A stretch of 64,000 nt of DNA from Embleya hyalina (GTDB lineage: Bacteria > Actinomycetota > Actinomycetes > Streptomycetales > Streptomycetaceae), in NCBI RefSeq assembly GCF_003967355.1, contig NZ_BIFH01000014.1, forward strand, positions 372,001 through 436,000, written 5' to 3'. A model generated the notes under the pieces. That model was not told the DNA's origin. It saw nothing but the letters and a program-made list of their open reading frames with translations, and did no database searches. Shown piece by piece: positions 52,788 to 63,940 of the stretch (positions within the stretch are counted from its first letter, which is position 1; each line of letters begins with the position of its first letter). Position numbers and translations under genes: made by a program.

Positions 52788-54023
52788 CTACCTTCCGGTA
52801 ACGGTGGGATCGAGCAGAGCGTTCCGGTCGGGTGGCGGATTTCGGGTCGGCACGGGACGCCCGACCCGCCCCGCCCGCTCCGGGGGCTCGGCACCGTCGA
52901 CCCGGTTCGCCCCTTCCGCCCGCCCCAGGAGTTCGGCGACCAGGGGAGCCACCTGGTCCAGTTCGAGCAGGAAGCCGTCGTGGCCGTACGCGGAGCGCAC
53001 CACGCGCAGTGGGCCCGCGGTCGGGATGGCGTCGGCGAGGGTCCGCTGCTGGCTCGGCGGGTACAGGCGGTCGCTGTCGACGGCCGCGACCACCGTCGGG
53101 GCGGTGATCCGGGCGAGCGCCGCCGCCACGCCGCCCCGACCCCGGCCCACGTCGTGGCTGTTCATCGCCTCGGTCAGGGCCACGTAGCTGCCCGCGTCGA
53201 AGCGTGCGCTCAACTTGGCCGCGTGGTGGTCCAGATAGGACTCGACGGCGTAGCGGCCGTTCGGGCCCTCGCCCGGCTGTCGTCGCCGGCCGAAACGGGC
53301 GGCCAGTTCGGGCTCGCTGCGATAGGTGACGTGCGCGATGCGGCGGGCCAGGCCGAGCCCCCGCCAGGGCCCGGCCTCGGCCGGCCGGTCGTGGTAGTCG
53401 CCGTCGGCCCACCCCGGATCGGCCCGGATCGCGTGCAGCTGTGTCGAGCACCACGCGATCTGCTCGGCGCCGGCCGCCGCGGCGGTGGCGATCAGGAACA
53501 GCGCGCCGACCCGCTCCGGATGGCTCACCGCCCACTCCACCGCCCGCATCCCGCCCATCGACCCGCCCACCACGGCCGCCCAGCGCTCGACGCCCCACAC
53601 GTCGGCGGCGGCCACCTCGGCGGCCACCTGGTCGCGAATGGTCAACCGGGGAAAGCGACTTCCCCAGGCCCGGCCGCCCGGACCGGGCGAGGCGGGGCCG
53701 GTGCTGCCCCGGCAACCGCCGAGCGCGTTCGGCGCGACCACGAACCAGCGGTCGGTGTCCAGCGCCCGACCCGGGCCGATCAGGCCGTCCCACCAACCGG
53801 GAGTGGGAAAGCCGGGACCGGCCGGACCGGCGACGTGGCTGTCCCCGGTCAACGCGTGCAGGACCAGCACCGCGTTCGAGCGGTCCGGGGCGAGCCGACC
53901 CCACGTCTCGTAGCCGATCCGGACCTCGGGCAGCACCTCCCCCGACTCGGTCCACAGCGGTGCGGGCAGGGTCAGCGAACGAGGCCCCGCCGGGGCGGGC
54001 GTGGTGTGTGCGGCGTGCGACAT
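52788..54023 (-). CDS. metX: Homoserine O-acetyltransferase
   Basis: 411 aa. It is an alpha/beta-hydrolase-fold acyltransferase with nucleophile S155 in GGSMGG, ALTGDSHVAG, PNALGGCRGSTGP, SYLDHHAAKL, DSDRLYPP and YGHDGFL, the full MetX set. It acetylates homoserine with acetyl-CoA to give O-acetylhomoserine, the acceptor for sulfhydrylases such as MetY upstream and the fusion protein across the divide. The C-terminal ~40 residues are a Pro/Arg-rich extension. It follows metY by 36 bp in the same operon. Confidence 0.95.
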   Translation of the reverse strand: MSHAAHTTPAPAGPRSLTLPAPLWTESGEVLPEVRIGYETWGRLAPDRSNAVLVLHALTGDSHVAGPAGPGFPTPGWWDGLIGPGRALDTDRWFVVAPNALGGCRGSTGPASPGPGGRAWGSRFPRLTIRDQVAAEVAAADVWGVERWAAVVGGSMGGMRAVEWAVSHPERVGALFLIATAAAAGAEQIAWCSTQLHAIRADPGWADGDYHDRPAEAGPWRGLGLARRIAHVTYRSEPELAARFGRRRQPGEGPNGRYAVESYLDHHAAKLSARFDAGSYVALTEAMNSHDVGRGRGGVAAALARITAPTVVAAVDSDRLYPPSQQRTLADAIPTAGPLRVVRSAYGHDGFLLELDQVAPLVAELLGRAEGANRVDGAEPPERAGRVGRPVPTRNPPPDRNALLDPTVTGR

Positions 54024-54059: not shown

Positions 54060-55436
54060 CTAGTTCGACTGCGCGGCGGCGCGGAATCCGGCCACCAGGT
54101 CGGCACGCAGGTCGGACAGCCCCTCGATGCCGACGGAGAGTCGGACCAGGCCCGGGGTGACACCCGTGGCCAGGCGTTCGGCGTCGGTGAGCTGGGCGTG
54201 CGTGGTACTGGCGGGGTGGATCACCAGGCTGCGCACGTCGCCGATGTTGGCCAGATGGCTGAACAGGGACAACGCGTTCACGAACCGGCGACCCGCCTCG
54301 ACCCCGCCCGTCAACTCGAACGCGACGACGGCCCCGGCGCCGCGCGGCAGATAGCGCTTGCCCGCCGCGTACCACCGGCTGCTCGGCAGACCCGCGTAGT
54401 GCACGGTCTCCACCTCCTCCCGGCTCTGCAACCACGCGGCCAGCGCGCTCGCGTTCGCCACGTGCCGCTCGACCCGCAGCGACAACGTCTCCAGGCCCTG
54501 GAGGATCAGGAAGCTGGTCAGCGGCGCGATCGAGGCTCCCACGTCGCGCAGCAGCTGCACGCGCAACTTCGCCGCGTACGCGCCCGGGCCCAGATCCGGC
54601 CAGTAGCGCAGCCCGTTGTAGCTCGCGTCGGGCTCGGCGAAGCCGGGGAACCGTTCGGCGTGCGCGCCGAAGTCGAAGGTGCCGCCGTCCACCACGACGC
54701 CGCCGATCGCGGTGCCGTGCCCGCCCAGGAACTTGGTCGCCGAATGCACCACGACGTCCGCGCCGTGCTCGATCGGCCGCAGCAGATACGGCGTGGGCAC
54801 CGTGTTGTCCACCACCAGCGGTACACCGGCGGCGTGCGCGACGTCGGCGACCGCCGCCACGTCCAGCACGTTGGCGCGCGGATTGCCCAGCGTCTCGGCG
54901 AACAGCAACTTCGTCCGCGGCCGGATCGCGGCCCGCCACGCGTCGAGGTCGTCCGGGTCGTCGACGAAGGTGACCTCGACGCCGAGCTTGGGCAGCGTCC
55001 AGTGGAACAGGTTGTACGTGCCGCCGTAGAGCGACGCGCTGGACACGATGTGGTCGCCCGCCGCCGCGAGGTTGAGCACCGCCAGCGTGGTCGCCGCCTG
55101 CCCGGAGGCCGTCGCGACCGCCGCCACGCCGCCTTCGAGCGCCGCCACGCGCCGCTCCAGCGCGTCGGTGGTGGGGTTGTGGATCCGGGTGTAGATGTGG
55201 CCTTCCTCGGACAGGTCGAACAGTCCGGCCGCGTGGTCGGTGTCCCGGAAGACGAACGAGGTGGTCTGGTAGATCGGCACCGCGCGGGCCCCGGTGGTCG
55301 GATCGGGCTCGGCGCCGGCGTGCACCTGCCGGGTCTCGAAGGACCACGACGCGGGGTCGTCGGTACGTACGGGGTCGTCGGCGCCCACGGGTTCGGCTTC
55401 GACGACGGGCGGCGTGTCGGTGGCTTCGAGGGTCAT
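54060..55436 (-). CDS. metY: O-acetylhomoserine sulfhydrylase (aminocarboxypropyltransferase)
   Basis: 458 aa from ATG 55436 after AAGGAG. It is a Cys/Met-metabolism PLP enzyme with the Schiff-base lysine K235 in [12 protein letters not shown], the phosphate-binding [13 protein letters not shown] and [10 protein letters not shown], and [13 protein letters not shown]. It makes homocysteine from O-acetylhomoserine and sulfide (or methionine from methanethiol). metX follows. In a block of about 105 residues around the lysine it is about 84% identical by eye to the sulfhydrylase half of the divergent fusion protein, so the two arose by fairly recent duplication. Control is probably through the leader peptide upstream. 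Confidence 0.95.
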
Positions 55437-55744
55437 CGGGAAACTCCTTGCGGGGTACGGGTGTCGGCGGCGGACGCGGGCAACGACGGGTGGAGCCGGA
55501 CCGATTGCGGATACGCGGGAGCAGGCCCCGGGCGTGCGGCGATCGGGCGTGCCGCACCGACCGCACGGCACGCGGCGAAGCGGCCGCGAGGCGGGCGTGG
55601 TTCGGCCACCCGAAGGCCCGGGCCGAAAGGGCCCGCGCACGGGGGAGCGGGAAGCGGGAAAAGGCGGGGCGCGGCGGAGCCGGCGGGTCAGCGCCCGGAC
55701 TCACACACCGCGCGAACCACCGGGACCGGAGCGGTCACCGGGGT

Positions 55745-56018: not shown

Positions 56019-56105
56019 ATGACTCCGCGTCAGGTCGCTTCCGTGCTGCTCGACCCCTTCTGGGTGGGTCGACGAGCCGACCACTTCGACCAGATCTGTC
56101 GCTGA
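56019..56105 (+). CDS. Candidate leader peptide (28 aa) of the oxygenase-sulfhydrylase operon
   Basis: ATG 56019 to TGA 56103-56105 encodes 28 residues ending in VGRRADHFDQICR. It shares with the metY leader the RR...H.D core and the Cys-Arg at the end, though the family fit is looser. It lies 240 bp upstream of the fusion gene in the same direction, a mirror image of the metY arrangement. No clear ribosome binding site is visible. If real, both divergent operons respond to the same cysteine signal. Confidence 0.5.
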   Translation: MTPRQVASVLLDPFWVGRRADHFDQICR

Positions 56106-56345: not shown

Positions 56346-58709
56346 ATGGCAACCAGCGCACCGCCCACCACCCTGCCCGTGATCGACATCTCCCGATTCC
56401 GCGACCCCGCCGCGGACCCGGCCGCCTTCCTGGCCGAACTCCGCTACGCGGCAAGGGAGATCGGCTTCTTCTATGTGATCGGCCATGGCGTCGACCCGGA
56501 GCTGCGGGCCCGCGCCCTGGCGGTCTCGAAGCGCTTCTTCGCGCTGCCCGAGGCGGACCGGCTCGCGGTGGAGAACATCAACTCGCCACAGTTTCGCGGG
56601 TACACCCGCACCGGCACCGAGTACACCGAGGGAGGGCCGGACTGGCGCGAACAACTGGACATCGGCCCCGAGCGGGCGGCGCTCGACCTCGGCCCGGACG
56701 ATCCCGCCTACCTGCGGCTGATCGGCCCCAACCAGTGGCCGCCCGCGCTGCCCGAACTGCGCGAGACCGTCCTCGCCTGGCAGGCCGAGGCGTTGCGGGT
56801 CAGCCGCGAGGTGCTGCGGGCGCTGGCCGCCGCGCTCGGCCAGGACGGCGGCTACTTCGACGAGTGGTTCGACGAGGAGGCCGCGGTCCACGTCAAGGTG
56901 GTGCACTACCCGGGGCGACCCAGCGCCGACGTGGACCAGGGGGTGGGCGCGCACAAGGACTACGGCTATCTCGCGCTGCTCCAGCAGGACGAGATCGGCG
57001 GCCTCCAGGTGCAGGCCCGGGACGGCTCCTGGATCGACGCGACGCCGCTGCCGGACGCGTTCGTGTTCAACATCGGCGAGATGTTGGAGATCGCCACGCG
57101 CGGCTACCTGCGGGCCACCCGGCACCGGGTGATCGCTCCCCAACCGGGCGTCGACCGCTACTCGTTGCCGTTCTTCCTCGGCCCGCGCCTGGACGCCGTC
57201 GTCGAACCGCTGGACCTGCCCGCCGAGTTGGCCGCCGAGGCCGACGGGGTCACCGAGGACCCGAGCAACCCGCTCAAGCCCGCCTACGGGGAGAACGCGC
57301 TGATCGGATGGCTGCGATCGCATCCGCGCGTGGTGGAGCGGTGGTGGTCCGACCTGCTCCCGGGCGCCGCCGGAACACCCGACCCCCGACCCGCCTTCGA
57401 GACGCTCCAGGTGCACGCCGGCGCCCGCCCCGACCCGGCCACCGGCGCCCGCGCCGTGCCGATCTACCTGACCAGCAGCTACGTCTTCCGCGACGCGGCG
57501 CACGCGGCCGACACGTTCGCGCTCACCGACCTGGAGACGCACGCGTACACCCGGCTGTCCAACCCCACCACCGCCGTGGTGGAGGAGCGCGTCGCCGCAC
57601 TGGAAGGCGGCACCGCGGCGGTGGCCGTGGGCAGCGGTCAGGCCGCCACCACCCTCGCGCTGCTCAACCTGGCCCGCGCCGGCGACCACCTCGTCGCGGC
57701 GGCCTCCCTGTACGGCGGCACCCGCACGCTGCTCGAACACACCTTCGCCGACCTGGGCATCGAGGTGAGCTTCGTCGACGATCCGGACGACCTCGACGCC
57801 TGGCGCGCCGCGATCCGCCCGGGCACGAAGGCGCTGTTCGGCGAGAGCGTCGGCAACCCGCGCGGCAACGTGCTCGACCTGGCCGCCGTCGCGGAGATCG
57901 CGCACACCGCGGGTGTCCCGTTCGTGGTCGACAACACCGTACCCACGCCGTACCTGCTCCGGCCGATCGAGCACGGCGCCGACATCGTGGTGCACTCCAC
58001 CACCAAGTTCCTCGGCGGACACGGCACCGCGATCGGCGGGATCGTGGTCGACGGCGGCACCTTCGACTTCGGCGCGCACGCCGACCGCTACCCCGGCCTG
58101 GTCGCACCCGACCCGACCTATCAGGGCCTCTCCTTCTGGGAGCGGTTCGGTCCGGACCGGATCGCCTACGCGCTGCGCCTGCGGGTACGGCTGTTGCGCG
58201 ACCTCGGCCCGGCGGTGTCGCCGCTGAACAGCTTCCTGCTGCTCCAGGGCATCGAGACGTTGTCGCTGCGCCTGGACCGGCACACCGCCAACGCCGAACG
58301 GGTGGCGGCCTGGCTCGCCGCGCGGCCCGAGGTGGTGCGGGTGGACCACCCGAGCCTGCCCACCAGCCCGTGGCACGCGGCGGCTCGGCGCTATCTGCCG
58401 CGCGGCGCGGGGGCGGTACTGTCGGTGGACCTGGCCGGCGGCCTGGCGGCCGGGCGGCGCTTCGTCGAGGGGCTGCGGCTGTTCAGCCACCTGGCCAACA
58501 TCGGCGACGCGCGCAGCCTGGCGATCCACCCCGCGTCCACCACACACGCGCAACTGGAACCCGATCAGCGGCTACACGCCGGGGTGACCCCCGGGCTGGT
58601 CCGGCTGTCGGTCGGCCTGGAGGGCATCGACGACCTGCTCGCCGACCTGGAACGCGGCCTGGCCGCCGCGGCCGCCGGCACCGACGTCCCCGAGGAGGGC
58701 TCCCGATGA
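56346..58709 (+). CDS. Fusion of a 2-oxoglutarate/Fe(II) oxygenase with an O-acetylhomoserine sulfhydrylase
   Basis: 787 aa from ATG 56346 with GAGGA upstream, one uninterrupted frame. Residues 1-340 are an isopenicillin-N-synthase-like oxygenase: the DIOX_N part ([20 protein letters not shown]), then the double-stranded beta-helix with the Fe(II) triad H203, D205 (HKDYG) and H260, and the 2-oxoglutarate motif R271-Y-S273. Residues from about 347 form a full MetY-type PLP enzyme with Schiff-base K554 (HSTTKFLGG). Both halves keep every catalytic residue I can check. The join is a short stretch ([11 protein letters not shown]). O-acetylhomoserine would come from metX across the divide. I infer that the oxygenase breaks a C-S bond and the attached sulfhydrylase captures the released sulfide or thiol. 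The substrate is unknown. Confidence 0.9.
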
Positions 58710-59548
58710 CCACCCGTCAGGCCGTGCACGAAAGCCGGATCCGCGGTGCCCGCGGCGAGTTCCACCTGCGCGTCTGGCCCGTCGGGGGCGAACCCGTCGC
58801 GGTCGTGCTCTTCCTGCACGGGCTCGGCGAACACGCCGGCCTGCACGAGCCGTTGGCGCATCGACTCAACGCCGACGGGATCGAGGTGTGGGCCCCCGAC
58901 CAGATCGGCCACGGCCTCAGCGACGGCACCCGGGTCCTGGTGGAGAGCCTGGACGCGCTCGCCGACGACGCCGAGCTGGTCCTGGCGCGGATCACGGCGG
59001 GCCGCCCCGGAGTGCCGCTGATCCTGGCCGGCCACTCGCTCGGCGCGGCCGTCACCCTGCTGCTCGCGGGCGAGCGAGCCGCCGCCGGGGCCGCCCGCGC
59101 GCTGGTCCTGGCCGGCGCCGGGACCGGGTTGTCGGCGGGCGAGAGCGGGCTGCGCGCGCTGCTCGCCGAACACGACATCGACCCGATGTCGCTGCGCAAG
59201 GACCCGAGCGAACTGTGCGGAAACGCCGAGTACGCCGAGCGGTTGCGCAACGACCCGCTGGTCTGGTCCGGCGGCCTGCGCCCCGAGACGCTGGACGCGC
59301 TGGAAGCCGGCGGCGCGCGGATCGCCGCACTGATCGCCGACGGCGCGATCACCCGGCCGGTGCTCTTCGTCCACGGCGAGGCCGACGACCTCGCGCCCGC
59401 GAGCGCGGTCCGCGCCGCCGCCGAGACGCTGCCCGACGCCCGGGCCCGGATCTACCCCGGCGACCTGCACAACGTGCTCGCCGAGCGCGACAGCGCCCGA
59501 GTACACGACGAGATCGCCGAGTTCGTGCTGGCCGCCGCCCACGCCTGA
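58706..59548 (+). CDS. Alpha/beta hydrolase, monoacylglycerol-lipase-like, coupled to the fusion gene
   Basis: 280 aa, ATG 58706 overlapping the fusion stop by 4 bp (ATGA), with GAGGAGG just upstream. It is a Hydrolase_4-type protein: FLHGLGEH (oxyanion hole), DQIGHGLSDG, nucleophile Ser in AGHSLGAA, acidic residue in VHGEADDLAP and His in GDLHNVLAE. The family hydrolyses esters of glycerol, lipids or small molecules. Tight coupling implies that it acts on the same compound as the fusion protein, perhaps releasing an esterified organosulfur substrate (inference). No signal peptide, so cytoplasmic. Confidence 0.88.
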   Translation: MTTRQAVHESRIRGARGEFHLRVWPVGGEPVAVVLFLHGLGEHAGLHEPLAHRLNADGIEVWAPDQIGHGLSDGTRVLVESLDALADDAELVLARITAGRPGVPLILAGHSLGAAVTLLLAGERAAAGAARALVLAGAGTGLSAGESGLRALLAEHDIDPMSLRKDPSELCGNAEYAERLRNDPLVWSGGLRPETLDALEAGGARIAALIADGAITRPVLFVHGEADDLAPASAVRAAAETLPDARARIYPGDLHNVLAERDSARVHDEIAEFVLAAAHA

Positions 59549-59650: not shown

Positions 59651-61204
59651 ATGCGCCGCTCCGCGCTCCGCATCGCCGCCGTCCTCGCCCTGGCCGGACC
59701 GGTCCTCGCCGCGTGCGGCTCCGGCGGCACCCCGAACCCCGCCGCCGACGGCGCCAACACCCAGGCCCCGGCGCCCGCGGACAGCGCGCTCGACCCGAAC
59801 GCCACGGCCCGGGTGCGGCTGGTCCTGGAGCCCACCAGCCTCAACCTGACCACCACCGCCGGCGTCGCGCTGGAACAGGTCCTGCTCGACAACGTCTACC
59901 AGGGCCTGCTCGGCGTCGACACCAACGCCGACAACAAGATCGTGCCCGCCCTGGCATCCGGCTTCGAGACGTCCCCCGACGGCCTCACCTACACCTTCCA
60001 CCTCACCCCGGGCGCCGCCTTCCACGACGGTTCGCCGGTCACCGCCGAGGACGCCGTCTGGTCGCTCCAGCAGGTGCTCGCGCCCGGCTCCAAGCAGCCG
60101 AACGCCAAGACCCTGGCCACGATCGCGGGCGTCGCCGCACCCGACCCGGCCACCGTGGTGATCACCCTCAGGCAGCGCGACACCAACCTCACCTGGGCAC
60201 TGACCCAGCGTCAGGGCGTGATCTACAAGAAGGGCACCGACTTCGCCAAGCTGGACACCACGGAGAACGGCACCGGCCCGTTCAGGCTCGACGGCTGGCA
60301 ACGCGGCTCGGCGATCACCCTCGTGCGCAACGACGCCTACAAGGGCGCCAAGGCGAAGGTGGCCAAGGTCGTGCTCAGCTACATCCCCGACCGCAACGCG
60401 GCGAACAACGCGCAGGCCACCGGTCAGACCGACATCGAGACCGCCGCCGAGGCCACGCTGCTCCAGCCGTTCACCGGCAACGACAGGTTCACCGTGCTGC
60501 GCGGCACCACCACCGACAAGTACACGCTGGCGATCAACAACGCCAAGGCACCGCTCAACAACCCGGCCGTGCGGCACGCCATCCGGCGCGCGATCGACAA
60601 GGACGCGCTGATCAAGTCCCTCGGCGGGGCGGGAGTTCGGCTCGGCGGGCCGATACCCACCTCCGACCCGGGCTACCAGGACCTGACCACGATCGACCCG
60701 CACGACGCGGCGGCGGCGAGGAAGGCGCTCGCCGACGCAGGGGTCGGCGAGCTCAAGCTCACCCTGAAGATCCCCAACATCTATCCGGCCGCGATCGGCG
60801 ACGTCCTGGTCTCCAACCTCAAGGACGCGGGCATCGAACTCACGGTCAAGCAACAGGAGTTCACCGCCTGGCTGAGCGAGGTGTACACCGCGAGGGACTA
60901 CGACCTGAGCCTGGTCAACCATGCCGAGCCGCACGACGTCGGCAACTTCGCCACCCCCGGCTACTACTTCGGCTACGACAACGCGGAGGTGCGCGACTGG
61001 TACGCGCAGGCCGTGGCCGCTCCCGACGAGCGCACCCGCACCGACCTGCTCGCCCGGATCGGCCGCCGGGTCGCCGAGGACGCCGGCGCCGACTGGCTGT
61101 ACCAGGCGCAGACGCTGACCGTGGTGCGCAAGGGCGTCAGCGGCGCACCCCAGCACCACACCAGCAGCCGGCTCAACCTCGCCGGCATCGGGATCACCAA
61201 GTGA
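59651..61204 (+). CDS. ABC transporter substrate-binding lipoprotein (DppA/OppA family, SBP_bac_5)
   Basis: 517 aa, ATG after AAGGAG. The signal peptide ends in LAAC with C22 lipidated. The family-5 pattern is clear: LEPTSLNLTTTAGVALEQVLLDNVYQGLLG near the start, LASGFETSPDGLTYTFHLTPGAAFHDGSPVTAEDAVWSL in the middle, and NNPAVRHAIRRAIDKDALI. Members bind peptides, nickel chelates, glutathione or other small molecules. The position behind the oxygenase-sulfhydrylase gene argues for a sulfur-containing ligand. The 102-bp gap from the previous gene holds no obvious terminator. Confidence 0.9.
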   Translation: MRRSALRIAAVLALAGPVLAACGSGGTPNPAADGANTQAPAPADSALDPNATARVRLVLEPTSLNLTTTAGVALEQVLLDNVYQGLLGVDTNADNKIVPALASGFETSPDGLTYTFHLTPGAAFHDGSPVTAEDAVWSLQQVLAPGSKQPNAKTLATIAGVAAPDPATVVITLRQRDTNLTWALTQRQGVIYKKGTDFAKLDTTENGTGPFRLDGWQRGSAITLVRNDAYKGAKAKVAKVVLSYIPDRNAANNAQATGQTDIETAAEATLLQPFTGNDRFTVLRGTTTDKYTLAINNAKAPLNNPAVRHAIRRAIDKDALIKSLGGAGVRLGGPIPTSDPGYQDLTTIDPHDAAAARKALADAGVGELKLTLKIPNIYPAAIGDVLVSNLKDAGIELTVKQQEFTAWLSEVYTARDYDLSLVNHAEPHDVGNFATPGYYFGYDNAEVRDWYAQAVAAPDERTRTDLLARIGRRVAEDAGADWLYQAQTLTVVRKGVSGAPQHHTSSRLNLAGIGITK

Positions 61205-61223: not shown

Positions 61224-62192
61224 ATGACCGTGTTCGTCGTGCGCCGGCTCGGACTGCTCGCGTTGTCCCTGCTCGGCGCGAGCATCCTGACCTTCGCCCT
61301 GCTTCGACTGCTCCCCGGTGATGCCGCCGCCTCGGTCGGCGGCATCACCGCCGACAAGGCACAACTCCGGTCGATCCGACACGACCTGGGTCTGGATCGG
61401 CCGCTGATCGCGCAGTACTGGACCTGGCTGACCGAGGTACCCACCGGTGATCTCGGCCACTCGCAGCTCAACGGCTCCTCGGTGACCGGCGAACTCGGCG
61501 AGAAACTGCGGGTCACCGGCCCGCTCGTGCTCGGCGCGCTGGTCCTGGCGCTCGTCTTCGCGGTACCGCTGGGGATGCTCGCGGCGGTGCGCCGGGAGCG
61601 GCGCGACGGTACCGCGATCAGCGTGGCGAGCCAGCTCGGGATCGCGCTGCCCACGTTGTGGGTGGGCCTGTTGCTGATCCTGCTGTTCGCCGTGCAGACC
61701 CCGCTGCTGCCGGCCCAGGGCTTCCCGGTGGAGGGCTGGGCCGACCCCGGCGAGGCGAGCCGCAGTCTGGTGTTGCCGACGCTGACCCTCGCCCTGTCCG
61801 AGGGCGCGGTGCTGCTGCGTTTCGTGCGCTCGGCCACGCTCGACGTGCTGCACCGGGACTACCTGCGTACCGCGCGCGCGGCCGGGCGTACCCGCACCGG
61901 TGCGCTCCTTCGGCACGGGCTGCGCAACGCGGCCGGGCCGGTGTTGTCCATGCTCGGCGTACAGGTCGCCGCCCTCCTGGTCGGAGCGATCGTGGTGGAG
62001 AAGGTGTTCACCCTGCCCGGCGTCGGCTCGATGCTGGTCGCCGACGTGGGCAACCGGGACCTGGTCAAGGTGCAGGGCGAGGTGATGCTCCTGGTGGCGA
62101 TCGTGCTGTTCGTCGGCTTCCTGGTGGACATCGCCCAGCGGTTGATCGACCCGCGCCTGGCGGACGTTCGGGTCCGGGAGGTGACCGGATGA
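61224..62192 (+). CDS. ABC transporter permease (DppB type)
   Basis: 322 aa. Six membrane helices are visible. The N-terminal motif (LRLLPGDAAAS, LDRPLIAQYWTWLTE.PTGDLGHS) and the EAA loop (LRTARAAGRTRTGALLRHGLRNAAGPVLS) are those of the DppB/OppB family. It starts 19 bp after the binding-protein gene, and its stop overlaps the next gene by 4 bp. Confidence 0.93.
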   Translation: MTVFVVRRLGLLALSLLGASILTFALLRLLPGDAAASVGGITADKAQLRSIRHDLGLDRPLIAQYWTWLTEVPTGDLGHSQLNGSSVTGELGEKLRVTGPLVLGALVLALVFAVPLGMLAAVRRERRDGTAISVASQLGIALPTLWVGLLLILLFAVQTPLLPAQGFPVEGWADPGEASRSLVLPTLTLALSEGAVLLRFVRSATLDVLHRDYLRTARAAGRTRTGALLRHGLRNAAGPVLSMLGVQVAALLVGAIVVEKVFTLPGVGSMLVADVGNRDLVKVQGEVMLLVAIVLFVGFLVDIAQRLIDPRLADVRVREVTG

Positions 62193-63940
62193 GGGCGCGA
62201 ATCGCCGTCATCGGTGTGCTGCGCGCGCTGTCGCGCGACCGCAACGGCCTGATCGGCGGCACCCTGGTCGCGATCCTGGTCGGCGCGGTGCTGCTGTCGC
62301 TGGCGTGGACCCCGTACGACCCCACCGCCGTCGATCCGAACTCGCCCTGGCTGCTCCCGTTTTCGGACGGGCACGTGCTCGGGACGGACATGCTCGGGCG
62401 GGACCAGTTCAGCCTGATCCTGGTCGGCTCCCGGGAGACACTGGTGATCGCGCTCGTCTCGGCGGGAATCGCCGCCGCGCTCGGCGTGCCGCTGGCGTTG
62501 GCGGCGGCGCTCGGACCGCGCCGGTTCGCCGCCGGAGTGGTGCAACTGGTCGACGTGGCCATCGCGTTCCCGGCGCTGCTCACCGCGATGATCCTGGCCG
62601 CCGTGTTCGGCGGATCGGTGTGGACCACGGCGAGCGCGATCGGCGTCGCGTTCGGGGTACACCTGGCCCGGATCGCCCGGGCCGAGATCGAGCGGGTGGC
62701 CGGCACCGACTACGTCCTGGCCGCCGCCGCGAGCGGATCGAGCACGGGGCGCACCATCCGGCGGCACATCCTGCCCAACATCGCGCCGACCCTGCTGGTC
62801 CAGCTCTCGCTGGTGATGGCGGTGGCCTCGCTGACCGAGGCGGCGCTGTCCTACCTCGGCTACGGCAGCCCCGCGCCCGCCGTGTCCTGGGGCCGGATCC
62901 TGCACGACCAACAGCCCTACATCTCCGCCCGGCCGCTGCTCGTGGTCTGGCCCGGACTCGCCGTCGCGCTGACCGTGCTGGGCTTCAACCTGCTCGGCGA
63001 CGCGCTGCGGGACGCGACCGATCCGCGCCTGCGGCACGGGGGATCGGGGGCGGTCGCCAAGGCCGACGGCGAGCGCGCGGTGCGGGCGATTCGCCCGCCC
63101 GCCGCGGTCGCCGGCGCGCTCCTGGAGATCACCGACCTCACCATCCGGATCGCCGGCCGCACCGTGGTGGACGGCGTCGACCTGACCCTCGCGCCGGGCG
63201 AACGGCTCGGCCTGATCGGCGAGTCCGGCTCCGGCAAGTCGCTCACCGCGCTGGCCGTGCTCGGCCTGCTGCCCGAGGGCGCCGAGGCCACCGGCAGCAT
63301 CCGGCTCGACGGCGCCGAACTGCTCGGCCGCTCCGAGCGCGAACTCGCCCGAATCCGCGGCGATCGGGTCGCCATGGTCTTCCAGGAACCGCTCACCGCG
63401 CTCGACCCGACCATGCGCGTCGGCCGGCAGATCGCCGAACCGCTGCGCCTGCACCGGGGCATGACCCGCCGTCGGGCCGACGAGGCGGCGATCGAGCTGG
63501 CCGCGCGGGTGGGCCTGCCGGATCCGGCCGACCTGGTCCGGGCCCGGCCGCACCAGCTCTCCGGCGGGCAACGCCAGCGGGTGGGCATCGCGATCGCCCT
63601 GGCCTGTCGACCGGCGCTGCTGATCGCGGACGAGCCGACCACCGCGCTGGACGTGACCGTGCAGCGGGACATCCTCGCGCTGCTCGACGAGCAGGCCCGG
63701 GAGCAGGGCACCGCGCTGCTGTTCATCACGCACGACCTCGCGGTGGTGTCCTCGGTGAGCGATCGCGTCGCGGTGCTGCGCGGCGGGCGCACGGTCGAGC
63801 AGGGGCCGCTGGAGACGATCCTGCACGACCCGCGCGCGCCCTACACGCGCGCGCTCCTCGCCGCCGCGCGAGCGACGGCGTTCGCCCCGATCGAGGCGCC
63901 GGCCGAGATCCCCACCGACTCCGTGGAGGCCGCGTCGTGA
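62189..63940 (+). CDS. ABC transporter permease-ATPase fusion (DppC-DppD)
   Basis: 583 aa from ATG 62189. Residues 1-280 are a DppC-type permease (VLGTDMLGRDQFSLILVGSRETL; EAA loop LAAAASGSSTGRTIRRHILPNIAPTLLV). From about residue 310 a DppD-type ATPase follows, with Walker A GESGSGKS, Q-loop VFQEP, signature LSGGQRQR, Walker B LLIADEPTTALD and the switch histidine in FITHD. The ALDPTMRVGRQIAEPL motif is typical of peptide/nickel ATPases. Permease-ATPase fusions of this transporter class recur in actinobacteria. The stop overlaps the GTG of the next gene. Confidence 0.93.
   Translation: MRARIAVIGVLRALSRDRNGLIGGTLVAILVGAVLLSLAWTPYDPTAVDPNSPWLLPFSDGHVLGTDMLGRDQFSLILVGSRETLVIALVSAGIAAALGVPLALAAALGPRRFAAGVVQLVDVAIAFPALLTAMILAAVFGGSVWTTASAIGVAFGVHLARIARAEIERVAGTDYVLAAAASGSSTGRTIRRHILPNIAPTLLVQLSLVMAVASLTEAALSYLGYGSPAPAVSWGRILHDQQPYISARPLLVVWPGLAVALTVLGFNLLGDALRDATDPRLRHGGSGAVAKADGERAVRAIRPPAAVAGALLEITDLTIRIAGRTVVDGVDLTLAPGERLGLIGESGSGKSLTALAVLGLLPEGAEATGSIRLDGAELLGRSERELARIRGDRVAMVFQEPLTALDPTMRVGRQIAEPLRLHRGMTRRRADEAAIELAARVGLPDPADLVRARPHQLSGGQRQRVGIAIALACRPALLIADEPTTALDVTVQRDILALLDEQAREQGTALLFITHDLAVVSSVSDRVAVLRGGRTVEQGPLETILHDPRAPYTRALLAAARATAFAPIEAPAEIPTDSVEAAS

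Follow-up and report, generated by a model that had tools for sequence, protein, structure and literature searches.

A gene for a fused oxygenase and sulfhydrylase

The window analyzed here is a stretch of 64,000 nucleotides of the Embleya hyalina genome (assembly GCF_003967355.1, contig NZ_BIFH01000014.1, positions 372,001 to 436,000; host genome of 12.05 Mb in 78 contigs). It contains a gene whose product joins a 2-oxoglutarate (2OG)/Fe(II) oxygenase to an O-acetylhomoserine sulfhydrylase (OAHS) of the pyridoxal phosphate (PLP) type. An earlier note on this DNA had reported an unbroken frame of 787 codons, and the frame was found to span exactly positions 56346-58709 of the plus strand. The gene and its parts are as follows:

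56346..58709, plus strand: fused gene, 2OG/Fe(II) oxygenase - O-acetylhomoserine sulfhydrylase, 787 aa (open reading frame [ORF] and domain search)
56373..57365, plus strand: oxygenase half, residues ~10-340 (DIOX_N, 2OG-FeII_Oxy, Fe ligands H203/D205/H260, R271/S273)
57351..57395, plus strand: linker, residues ~336-350 (length differs among five fused homologues in the linker alignment)
57399..58661, plus strand: PLP half, MetY-like, residues 352-772 (K554; clade-specific changes at 395-405 and T552)

Pfam analysis of the fused protein identified DIOX_N at residues 10-133 (E = 4.8e-34), 2OG-FeII_Oxy at 185-280 (1.5e-22), and Cys_Met_Meta_PP at 352-772 (2.7e-125). The oxygenase half scores above the Pfam gathering scores, with 117.9 bits for PF14226 (27.3 required) and 80.2 bits for PF03171 (23 required). 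The catalytic residues named in the earlier note were correctly numbered: H203 and D205 lie in GAHKDYG (201-207), R271 and S273 in DRYS, and K554 in TTKFLGG (552-558), and H260 completes the 2-His-1-carboxylate triad. The triad and the RxS motif (H203, D205, H260, R271, S273) are invariant in all 22 aligned oxygenase sequences; RxS is also found in isopenicillin N synthase (IPNS), an enzyme that does not use 2OG. The solved chains closest to the oxygenase half are 9ovh (234 bits) and 6jyv (189 bits), IPNS-like/DIOX_N oxygenases with which it shares DIOX_N and 2OG-FeII_Oxy domains, an HxD...H motif and RxS. It differs from both by an H-K-D rather than an H-T-D sequence and by its links to sulfur genes. 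Chain 9ovh is also named an ethylene-forming enzyme, a name behind which we found no assay. The oxygenase half is far from IPNS proper (at most 53 bits) and from the ethylene-forming-enzyme chains for which many structures exist (~55-63 bits). TauD and other sulfonate or sulfate-ester dioxygenases are likewise 2OG/Fe(II) oxygenases in sulfur scavenging. In contrast to them, the oxygenase half is of a different family, no TauD family being present among the six Pfam matches of the fused protein, and we know of no TauD-type dioxygenase coupled to a sulfhydrylase.

The PLP half clears the cut-off of the OAH_OAS_sulfhy subfamily model TIGR01326 (599.3 versus 495.1 bits) and fails the methionine gamma-lyase model TIGR01328 (321.4 versus 549.7 bits). 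It keeps K554 and the SLYGGT, YTRxxNPT and VRLS motifs, which, from their roles in the fold family, we take to be the partner motifs of the PLP lysine. The solved chain closest to it, 4kam, is an O-acetylhomoserine sulfhydrylase. The PLP half resembles MetY in its family, its catalytic residues and its 70% identity to the canonical MetY encoded nearby. It departs from canonical MetY by being fused, by its position in an oxygenase-linked clade, by an insertion and changes at 395-405 and T552 described below, and by its score under the equivalog cut-off of NF005872 (PRK07812; 691.2 versus 703 bits), where the neighboring canonical MetY reaches 793.2. The predicted structure of the fused protein, with a mean predicted local distance difference test score (pLDDT) of 69.5 and a predicted template-modeling score (pTM) of 0.52, is too weak to judge a tunnel between the two active sites.

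The fusion is recent within a wider gene pair

The earlier note had named a sequencing error merging two genes, or absence of the architecture from relatives, as grounds for doubting the fusion. The fusion is present in five genomes, three of Embleya and two of Yinghuangia. Among 100 relatives searched, near-full-length matches in one stop-free frame were found in the same genus (G001 and G002) and the same family (G004 and G030), in addition to the genome of origin; five genomes with a whole stop-free frame argue that the fusion is not an assembly error. Among the matches listed, neither G003 (same genus, 1650 contigs) nor G020 (the genus of G004 and G030) has a full-length one, the best of each being a MetY-like place. 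Of the named relatives, Embleya scabrispora is the closest that we found (94% in the oxygenase half). Purifying selection acts on both halves: the ratio of nonsynonymous to synonymous substitution (dN/dS), computed for five pairs of fused genes, is 0.05-0.19 for each half. The halves are conserved across the fused homologues, and the linkers vary in length and sequence. The only genera in which we found the fusion are Embleya and Yinghuangia; in other lineages, the oxygenase and PLP genes are separate, overlapping or adjacent. The fusion is a recent event within a wider gene pair, and the covalent link is not an essential feature of the pairing of oxygenase and sulfhydrylase.

The unfused pair was examined in 43 actinobacterial loci (L038-L080), the best-matching ones of the same oxygenase clade. 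A dedicated, intact PLP gene lies directly downstream of the oxygenase in 32 of the 43, 3 of them fused, and in 28 of 29 split pairs there is a 4-nt overlap between a start codon and the oxygenase stop; in the remaining one (L048), the first candidate start overlaps by one. Canonical metY-metX takes this place at one locus (L074), the PLP gene is missing downstream at seven, and a short truncated PLP remnant lies by the oxygenase at three (L042, L055 and L078), which suggests secondary loss of the partner. In 18 of the 43, the fetched flank contains, downstream and in the same orientation, a substrate-binding protein gene of the type found in the window. As a control, none of 20 distant oxygenase paralogues from related genomes (48-54% identical; L158-L177) has a PLP match within ~3-4 kb on either side, and no neighbor family is common to more than 6 of the 20. 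Four of the loci (L038, L039, L040 and L074) duplicate L122, L123, L124 and L119 and were used once in trees.

The control paralogue, a second H-K-D oxygenase, occurs in 20 of 20 sampled genomes of the family and order, which were chosen because the paralogue had been listed there. We considered the H-K-D iron motif as a marker of the sulfur-linked clade and rejected it: it is found in 102 of 103 oxygenase sequences but also in 20 of 20 control paralogues, which have no sulfur neighbors. Loci L058 and L060 are near-identical; the latter, a record titled Rhodococcus rhodnii, falls with Kibdelosporangium in the PLP and oxygenase trees and is possibly mislabeled. In an Amycolatopsis bin (L062), positions 942-1452 and 2353-2857 are strong matches to the Saccharopolyspora small RNA family Sernc350.

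A dedicated clade of sulfhydrylases

Among 90 PLP proteins placed in a quick maximum-likelihood tree, the 34 oxygenase-linked actinobacterial ones make up a single clade (SH-aLRT 100) that is separate from the metX-linked MetY proteins. Ten alignment columns separate the oxygenase-linked from the metX-linked actinobacterial proteins (34 versus 36 sequences). They include a one-residue insertion and changes at 395-405, around YTRxxNPT, and T552, two residues before the PLP lysine. These clade-specific residues may point to a changed substrate. The oxygenase-linked PLP proteins of Proteobacteria fall elsewhere in the tree, indicating that the pairing arose more than once or that MetY partners were exchanged. 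The PLP tree omits L003 and L017 (the latter the same genome place as L119); the oxygenase tree, also a quick one, omits L017 and 22 mostly Mesorhizobium loci; and the residue comparison omits L003, L017, L120, L126 and L141, with L119 counted in the metX-linked group. L141 has a very long branch.

The pair and the oxygenase outside actinobacteria

A tblastn search matched the oxygenase half to 327 plasmid records, and 39 plasmid records cover at least 80% of the whole protein at one place. From the tops of these lists, and thus not at random, we fetched 17 plasmid regions, 11 of them annotated. PLP and oxygenase genes are adjacent, in both orders, in Sinorhizobium, Pseudoroseomonas, Azospirillum (two), Rhizobium NXC24, Roseomonas and Shinella, and the pair was seen by translation in five unannotated regions. 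In differing sets, the neighbors of the proteobacterial plasmid pairs include ssuD, sfnB, cysE, and genes for LLM monooxygenases, SsuA-like proteins, sulfate transporters and RidA-annotated proteins. None of the non-actinobacterial pairs read is fused. Apparent independent fusions in Ensifer and Azospirillum, where single-piece tblastn matches spanned both halves, were rejected, as the first frame closes before the second gene; this covers the fetched plasmid loci with the oxygenase first and the PLP-first loci L133, L138, L140 and L143. In two Azospirillum loci (L135 and L142), the pair is followed by genes for a flavin adenine dinucleotide (FAD)-binding protein and a ferredoxin that resemble fumarate reductase or adenosine 5′-phosphosulfate (APS) reductase, under the cut-offs.

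The oxygenase gene also occurs in other settings. In Phyllobacterium, its locus holds LLM, GNAT, M20 and msuE genes, and an unannotated S. chartreusis record has a divergent metY, without a dedicated PLP gene. A MetQ-like gene is present at 20 of the 37 rhizobial and related loci examined (L081-L117); in this set, MetY is found near the oxygenase less than 400 bp downstream in L083, divergent in L100 and ~3.5 kb off in three loci.

Linkage to methylthio-alkane reductase

On a plasmid of Candidatus Chlorohelix (Chloroflexota), the oxygenase gene follows nifB- and nifH-type genes and two nitrogenase-component genes. The D component matches chain 9fmg with 475 bits and 9d9u, for which we found no paper, with 473 bits, the next chain scoring 134. 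The complex in 9FMG is methylthio-alkane reductase (Mar), which resembles nitrogenase and works as a reductase independently of oxygen (PMC12552129). The oxygenase gene of Rhodopseudomonas rhenobacensis is divergent from metY-marD-marK, followed by an SsuA-like gene and, further on, by a second mar set. The MarD protein of this species matches 9fmg at 582 bits, and between R. rhenobacensis and Chlorohelix the B, H, D and K homologues share 41-76% identity.

The oxygenase was found in 3 of 149 genomes of the Rhodopseudomonas family, two with marDK-metY and marBH and one with metY-ssuA-sfnB-LLM, and in 2 of 190 genomes drawn from the class, R. rhenobacensis included, the other locus being L182. 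In the Mar islands at L150 (2588-19794), which has two mar sets, and at L183, metY immediately precedes marDK and the oxygenase gene belongs to the island.

In Rhodospirillum rubrum, OAHS is described as converting methanethiol, as its glutathione adduct, and O-acetylhomoserine to methionine, and OAHS and MetQ-, MetN- and NlpA-named proteins as rising on 5-methylthioadenosine (PMC4958253, in the portion available to us).

Neighboring genes and a conserved leader ORF

The fused gene is surrounded in the window by the following features:

52788..54023, minus strand: metX, homoserine O-acetyltransferase, which makes the co-substrate of the PLP half (domain and family models)
54060..55640, minus strand: canonical metY paralogue, in divergent orientation to the fused gene; its product shares 70% identity with the PLP half (start codon provisional)
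56019..56105, plus strand: conserved short leader ORF, MTPRQVASVLLDPFWVGRRADHFDQICR followed by a stop, 28 codons, Cys-containing; ends 240 nt before the fused gene
58706..59548, plus strand: alpha/beta hydrolase (Hydrolase_4); start overlaps the fused-gene stop by 4 nt
59651..61204, plus strand: ATP-binding cassette (ABC) transporter substrate-binding protein, SBP_bac_5 (Opp/Nik type; domain search)
61224..62192, plus strand: ABC transporter permease 1 (BPD_transp_1; domain search)
62189..63940, plus strand: ABC permease 2 and ATPase sharing one frame (domains recognized by eye in the translation)

A hydrolase homologue occupies the same position in Embleya, Yinghuangia, Amycolatopsis, Nocardia and others, and a second ATPase-like match lies just beyond the window end (L118, 14028-14711).

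Recurring 8-mers in the regions upstream of the oxygenase led to the leader ORF. Its core, LLDPFW..RRAD[QH]FD..C, precedes the oxygenase in 16 of 64 distinct loci examined, all 16 being among the 19 loci of the branch formed by Streptomyces, Embleya, Yinghuangia and Actinacidiphila; it is missing from L051, L052 and L078, the last having a 5′-truncated oxygenase match. The leader DNA pattern occurs in 7 of 150 relatives, once each, six with this oxygenase locus and one (G024) at a locus without an oxygenase. Pairwise differences among 11 unique leader sequences are distributed over the codon positions as 108/30/170, as expected of a translated peptide. The leader ORF has no NCBIfam model match, with no hit at E values up to 1 to NF042934, a model of a known actinobacterial leader peptide; the leader preceding the L079 oxygenase is a near-match to that model (23.1 bits, cut-off 27). 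Leader peptides with runs of Cys codons precede cys operons of actinobacteria, according to the accessible part of PMC1262725. The Cys-containing leader ORF suggests that expression follows cysteine supply. Further leader copies were noted on a Streptomyces plasmid (L132, ~17519), as a second copy before a frame resembling the major facilitator superfamily, and in L155 and L027 (G024).

Other modes of control were considered. In 33 regions upstream of the oxygenase, no dyad that might serve as a DNA operator rose above shuffled sequences (best in 3 loci; shuffles 2-4). An S-adenosylmethionine (SAM) riboswitch was rejected as a general regulator, as SAM-IV occurs in just 3 of 37 loci (30 actinobacterial and 7 proteobacterial; L120 left out of the scan). 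All three are actinobacterial (L051, 3878-3991; L052, 5525-5638; L044, 25-138), and in L051 and L052 the element precedes a divergent Opp-type transporter of another kind, which adjoins the oxygenase-PLP pair.

Proposed function and alternatives

In the reading that we favor, and hold with about even confidence, the fused protein would be an organosulfur-scavenging module in which the oxygenase splits the C-S bond of a thioether and the MetY half captures the thiol, probably methanethiol, which we prefer to sulfide because of the Mar linkage. The downstream Opp-type transporter would import a small thioether-like compound. With Fe(II), O2 and 2OG, the oxygenase half would hydroxylate the carbon adjoining the sulfur, as its genetic linkage suggests, and the hemithioacetal would break down to leave an aldehyde and a thiol, the latter most likely methanethiol. 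The DIOX_N oxygenase family includes enzymes of oxidative O-demethylation such as thebaine 6-O-demethylase, which is among the PDB matches of the oxygenase half. By its family function, the PLP half would let the thiol replace the acetate of MetX-made O-acetylhomoserine, yielding methionine, or homocysteine if sulfide were the nucleophile. The fusion may hold the volatile, reactive thiol near its acceptor and would provide both activities in equal number. The bifunctional catalyst put forward in the earlier note survives in part: sulfur scavenging by an oxygenase that frees sulfur for a sulfhydrylase fits most neighborhoods, but the covalent tie that it emphasized is not the essential feature.

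Judged from gene context, several independent neighborhoods link the pair to organosulfur metabolism, and the oxygenase family as a whole is wider. The favored reading draws on the intact halves and the purifying selection on them, the unfused actinobacterial pairs, the dedicated PLP clade, the recurring sulfur-gene and Mar neighborhoods, the MetQ-like genes of the rhizobial loci, the Cys-containing leader ORF together with the three SAM-IV riboswitches, and the methanethiol reaction of OAHS in R. rubrum. A more specific version, possible but doubtful, is that the protein is an O2-dependent counterpart of Mar fused to its methanethiol acceptor, which would turn a methylthio compound, O2, 2OG and O-acetylhomoserine into methionine under control of the Cys leader. 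The likeness to the Mar and OAHS systems (MarBHDK; R. rubrum) lies in the proposed release of methanethiol for capture by OAHS and in shared gene neighborhoods. Mar itself differs, being a nitrogenase-like, oxygen-independent reductase in the available text of PMC12552129, whereas here an oxygenase is fused to the sulfhydrylase.

Several observations weigh against the organosulfur reading. Most of the 37 rhizobial loci lack a PLP partner and have at most a MetQ-like transporter, and in Klebsiella and Pantoea the oxygenase accompanies a MetQ/ATPase/permease set, annotated as methionine-type, with no PLP partner. Five Nocardia loci have neither a PLP nor a MetQ-like match, the alphaproteobacterial L182 has none of the tested sulfur genes nearby, and the 48-54% identical paralogue, without sulfur neighbors, is common in Streptomycetaceae. 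The H-K-D motif, which these paralogues share, marks nothing. The transporter types differ by lineage and may reflect different substrates, and the Mar linkage rests on three loci. On the side of regulation, RNA folding of the leader region is unremarkable (z = -0.98), and the window's own locus (L118) has no SAM-IV element. As the oxygenase often lacks a PLP partner, MetY is not required for it to work, and the wider family may have roles unrelated to sulfur.

The order of events might be reversed, or the PLP half might be a lyase, so that a sulfur amino acid is split or remodeled first, in the manner of a methionine-gamma-lyase-like enzyme, and the oxygenase acts on the product or the carbon skeleton. 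We consider this unlikely, though likelier than the remaining alternatives. PLP lyases give off enamines, and a RidA-annotated gene, scoring 99.5 bits against a TIGR00004 cut-off of 106.25, stands right after the pair in Rhizobium NXC24. The adjoining MetQ-like transporter genes and the closeness of the clade-specific residues to the PLP active site also speak for a lyase. So does Shewanella, where a MegL-like gene is always found beside one for an isopenicillin-N-synthase-like oxygenase, in the part of PMC3228920 available. The model scores (599 versus 495 bits for TIGR01326, 321 versus 550 for TIGR01328), which favor a sulfhydrylase, argue against this alternative, as do the repeated adjacency of the pair to metX-metY and the frequency of oxygenases without a partner. 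It is rather improbable that the oxygenase acts as TauD does, cleaving a sulfonate or sulfate ester to sulfite or sulfate, with ordinary reduction providing sulfide to the PLP half and no direct hand-over. The SsuD, SsuA-like or sulfate-transporter genes near the pair in Sinorhizobium, Pseudoroseomonas, Roseomonas and Shinella would suit such a route, but the oxygenase is of the DIOX_N type without a TauD Pfam match, the Mar linkage points to thiols, and the sulfite reductase that the route needs is not so named among the annotated neighbors of seven proteobacterial pair loci.

An equally improbable explanation is a neutral fusion, in which two enzymes of a sulfur-starvation operon, sharing regulation and unconnected by a reaction sequence, merged through loss of an overlapping stop. 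From a split pair with a 4-nt overlap, a small frame change yields a fusion, and there is one fused branch only, with a variable linker. On the other hand, more than one MetY lineage has been paired with the oxygenase, either gene may come first, and canonical metY-metX stands in the same place in Actinacidiphila, which suggests linked function over chance. A role in tailoring a sulfur-containing natural product is very improbable: the IPNS-like family and hosts rich in secondary metabolism would fit it, but the neighbors are a conserved ABC importer and MetX-MetY, the gene extends to Rhizobium, Azospirillum and Chloroflexota, and biosynthetic genes are missing from the conserved set.

Relation to described systems and significance

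The earlier note knew of no described oxygenase-sulfhydrylase fusion, and we found none in the open-licence literature searched. A related pairing is nevertheless in print. Like the pair studied here, megL-pcbC of Shewanella (preceded by MetJ boxes; 2011) joins a transsulfuration-family PLP enzyme to an IPNS-like oxygenase with which it always clusters, as far as the available text of PMC3228920 goes. As described in that same text, which offers no mechanism for the oxygenase, the Shewanella pair differs by consisting of separate genes and by a partner that is MegL-like rather than MetY-like; the likeness drawn here is between the described enzyme types. No assigned function for this oxygenase branch was found in the searches made, and a keyword search of PMC12581299 and PMC8557817 returned nothing on this oxygenase. 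The enzyme families are known ones; new are their covalent and operon combination and the predicted reaction sequence.

If the favored reading is true, the fused gene would represent an aerobic route by which soil bacteria take the sulfur of thioethers without losing methanethiol, an aerobic match to the nitrogenase-like anaerobic enzyme. A branch of 2OG oxygenases for which we found no assigned function would thereby gain a testable one, the fusion being a single gene that can be expressed and assayed, and the operon-specific leader ORF would be a second, independent handle on sulfur control.

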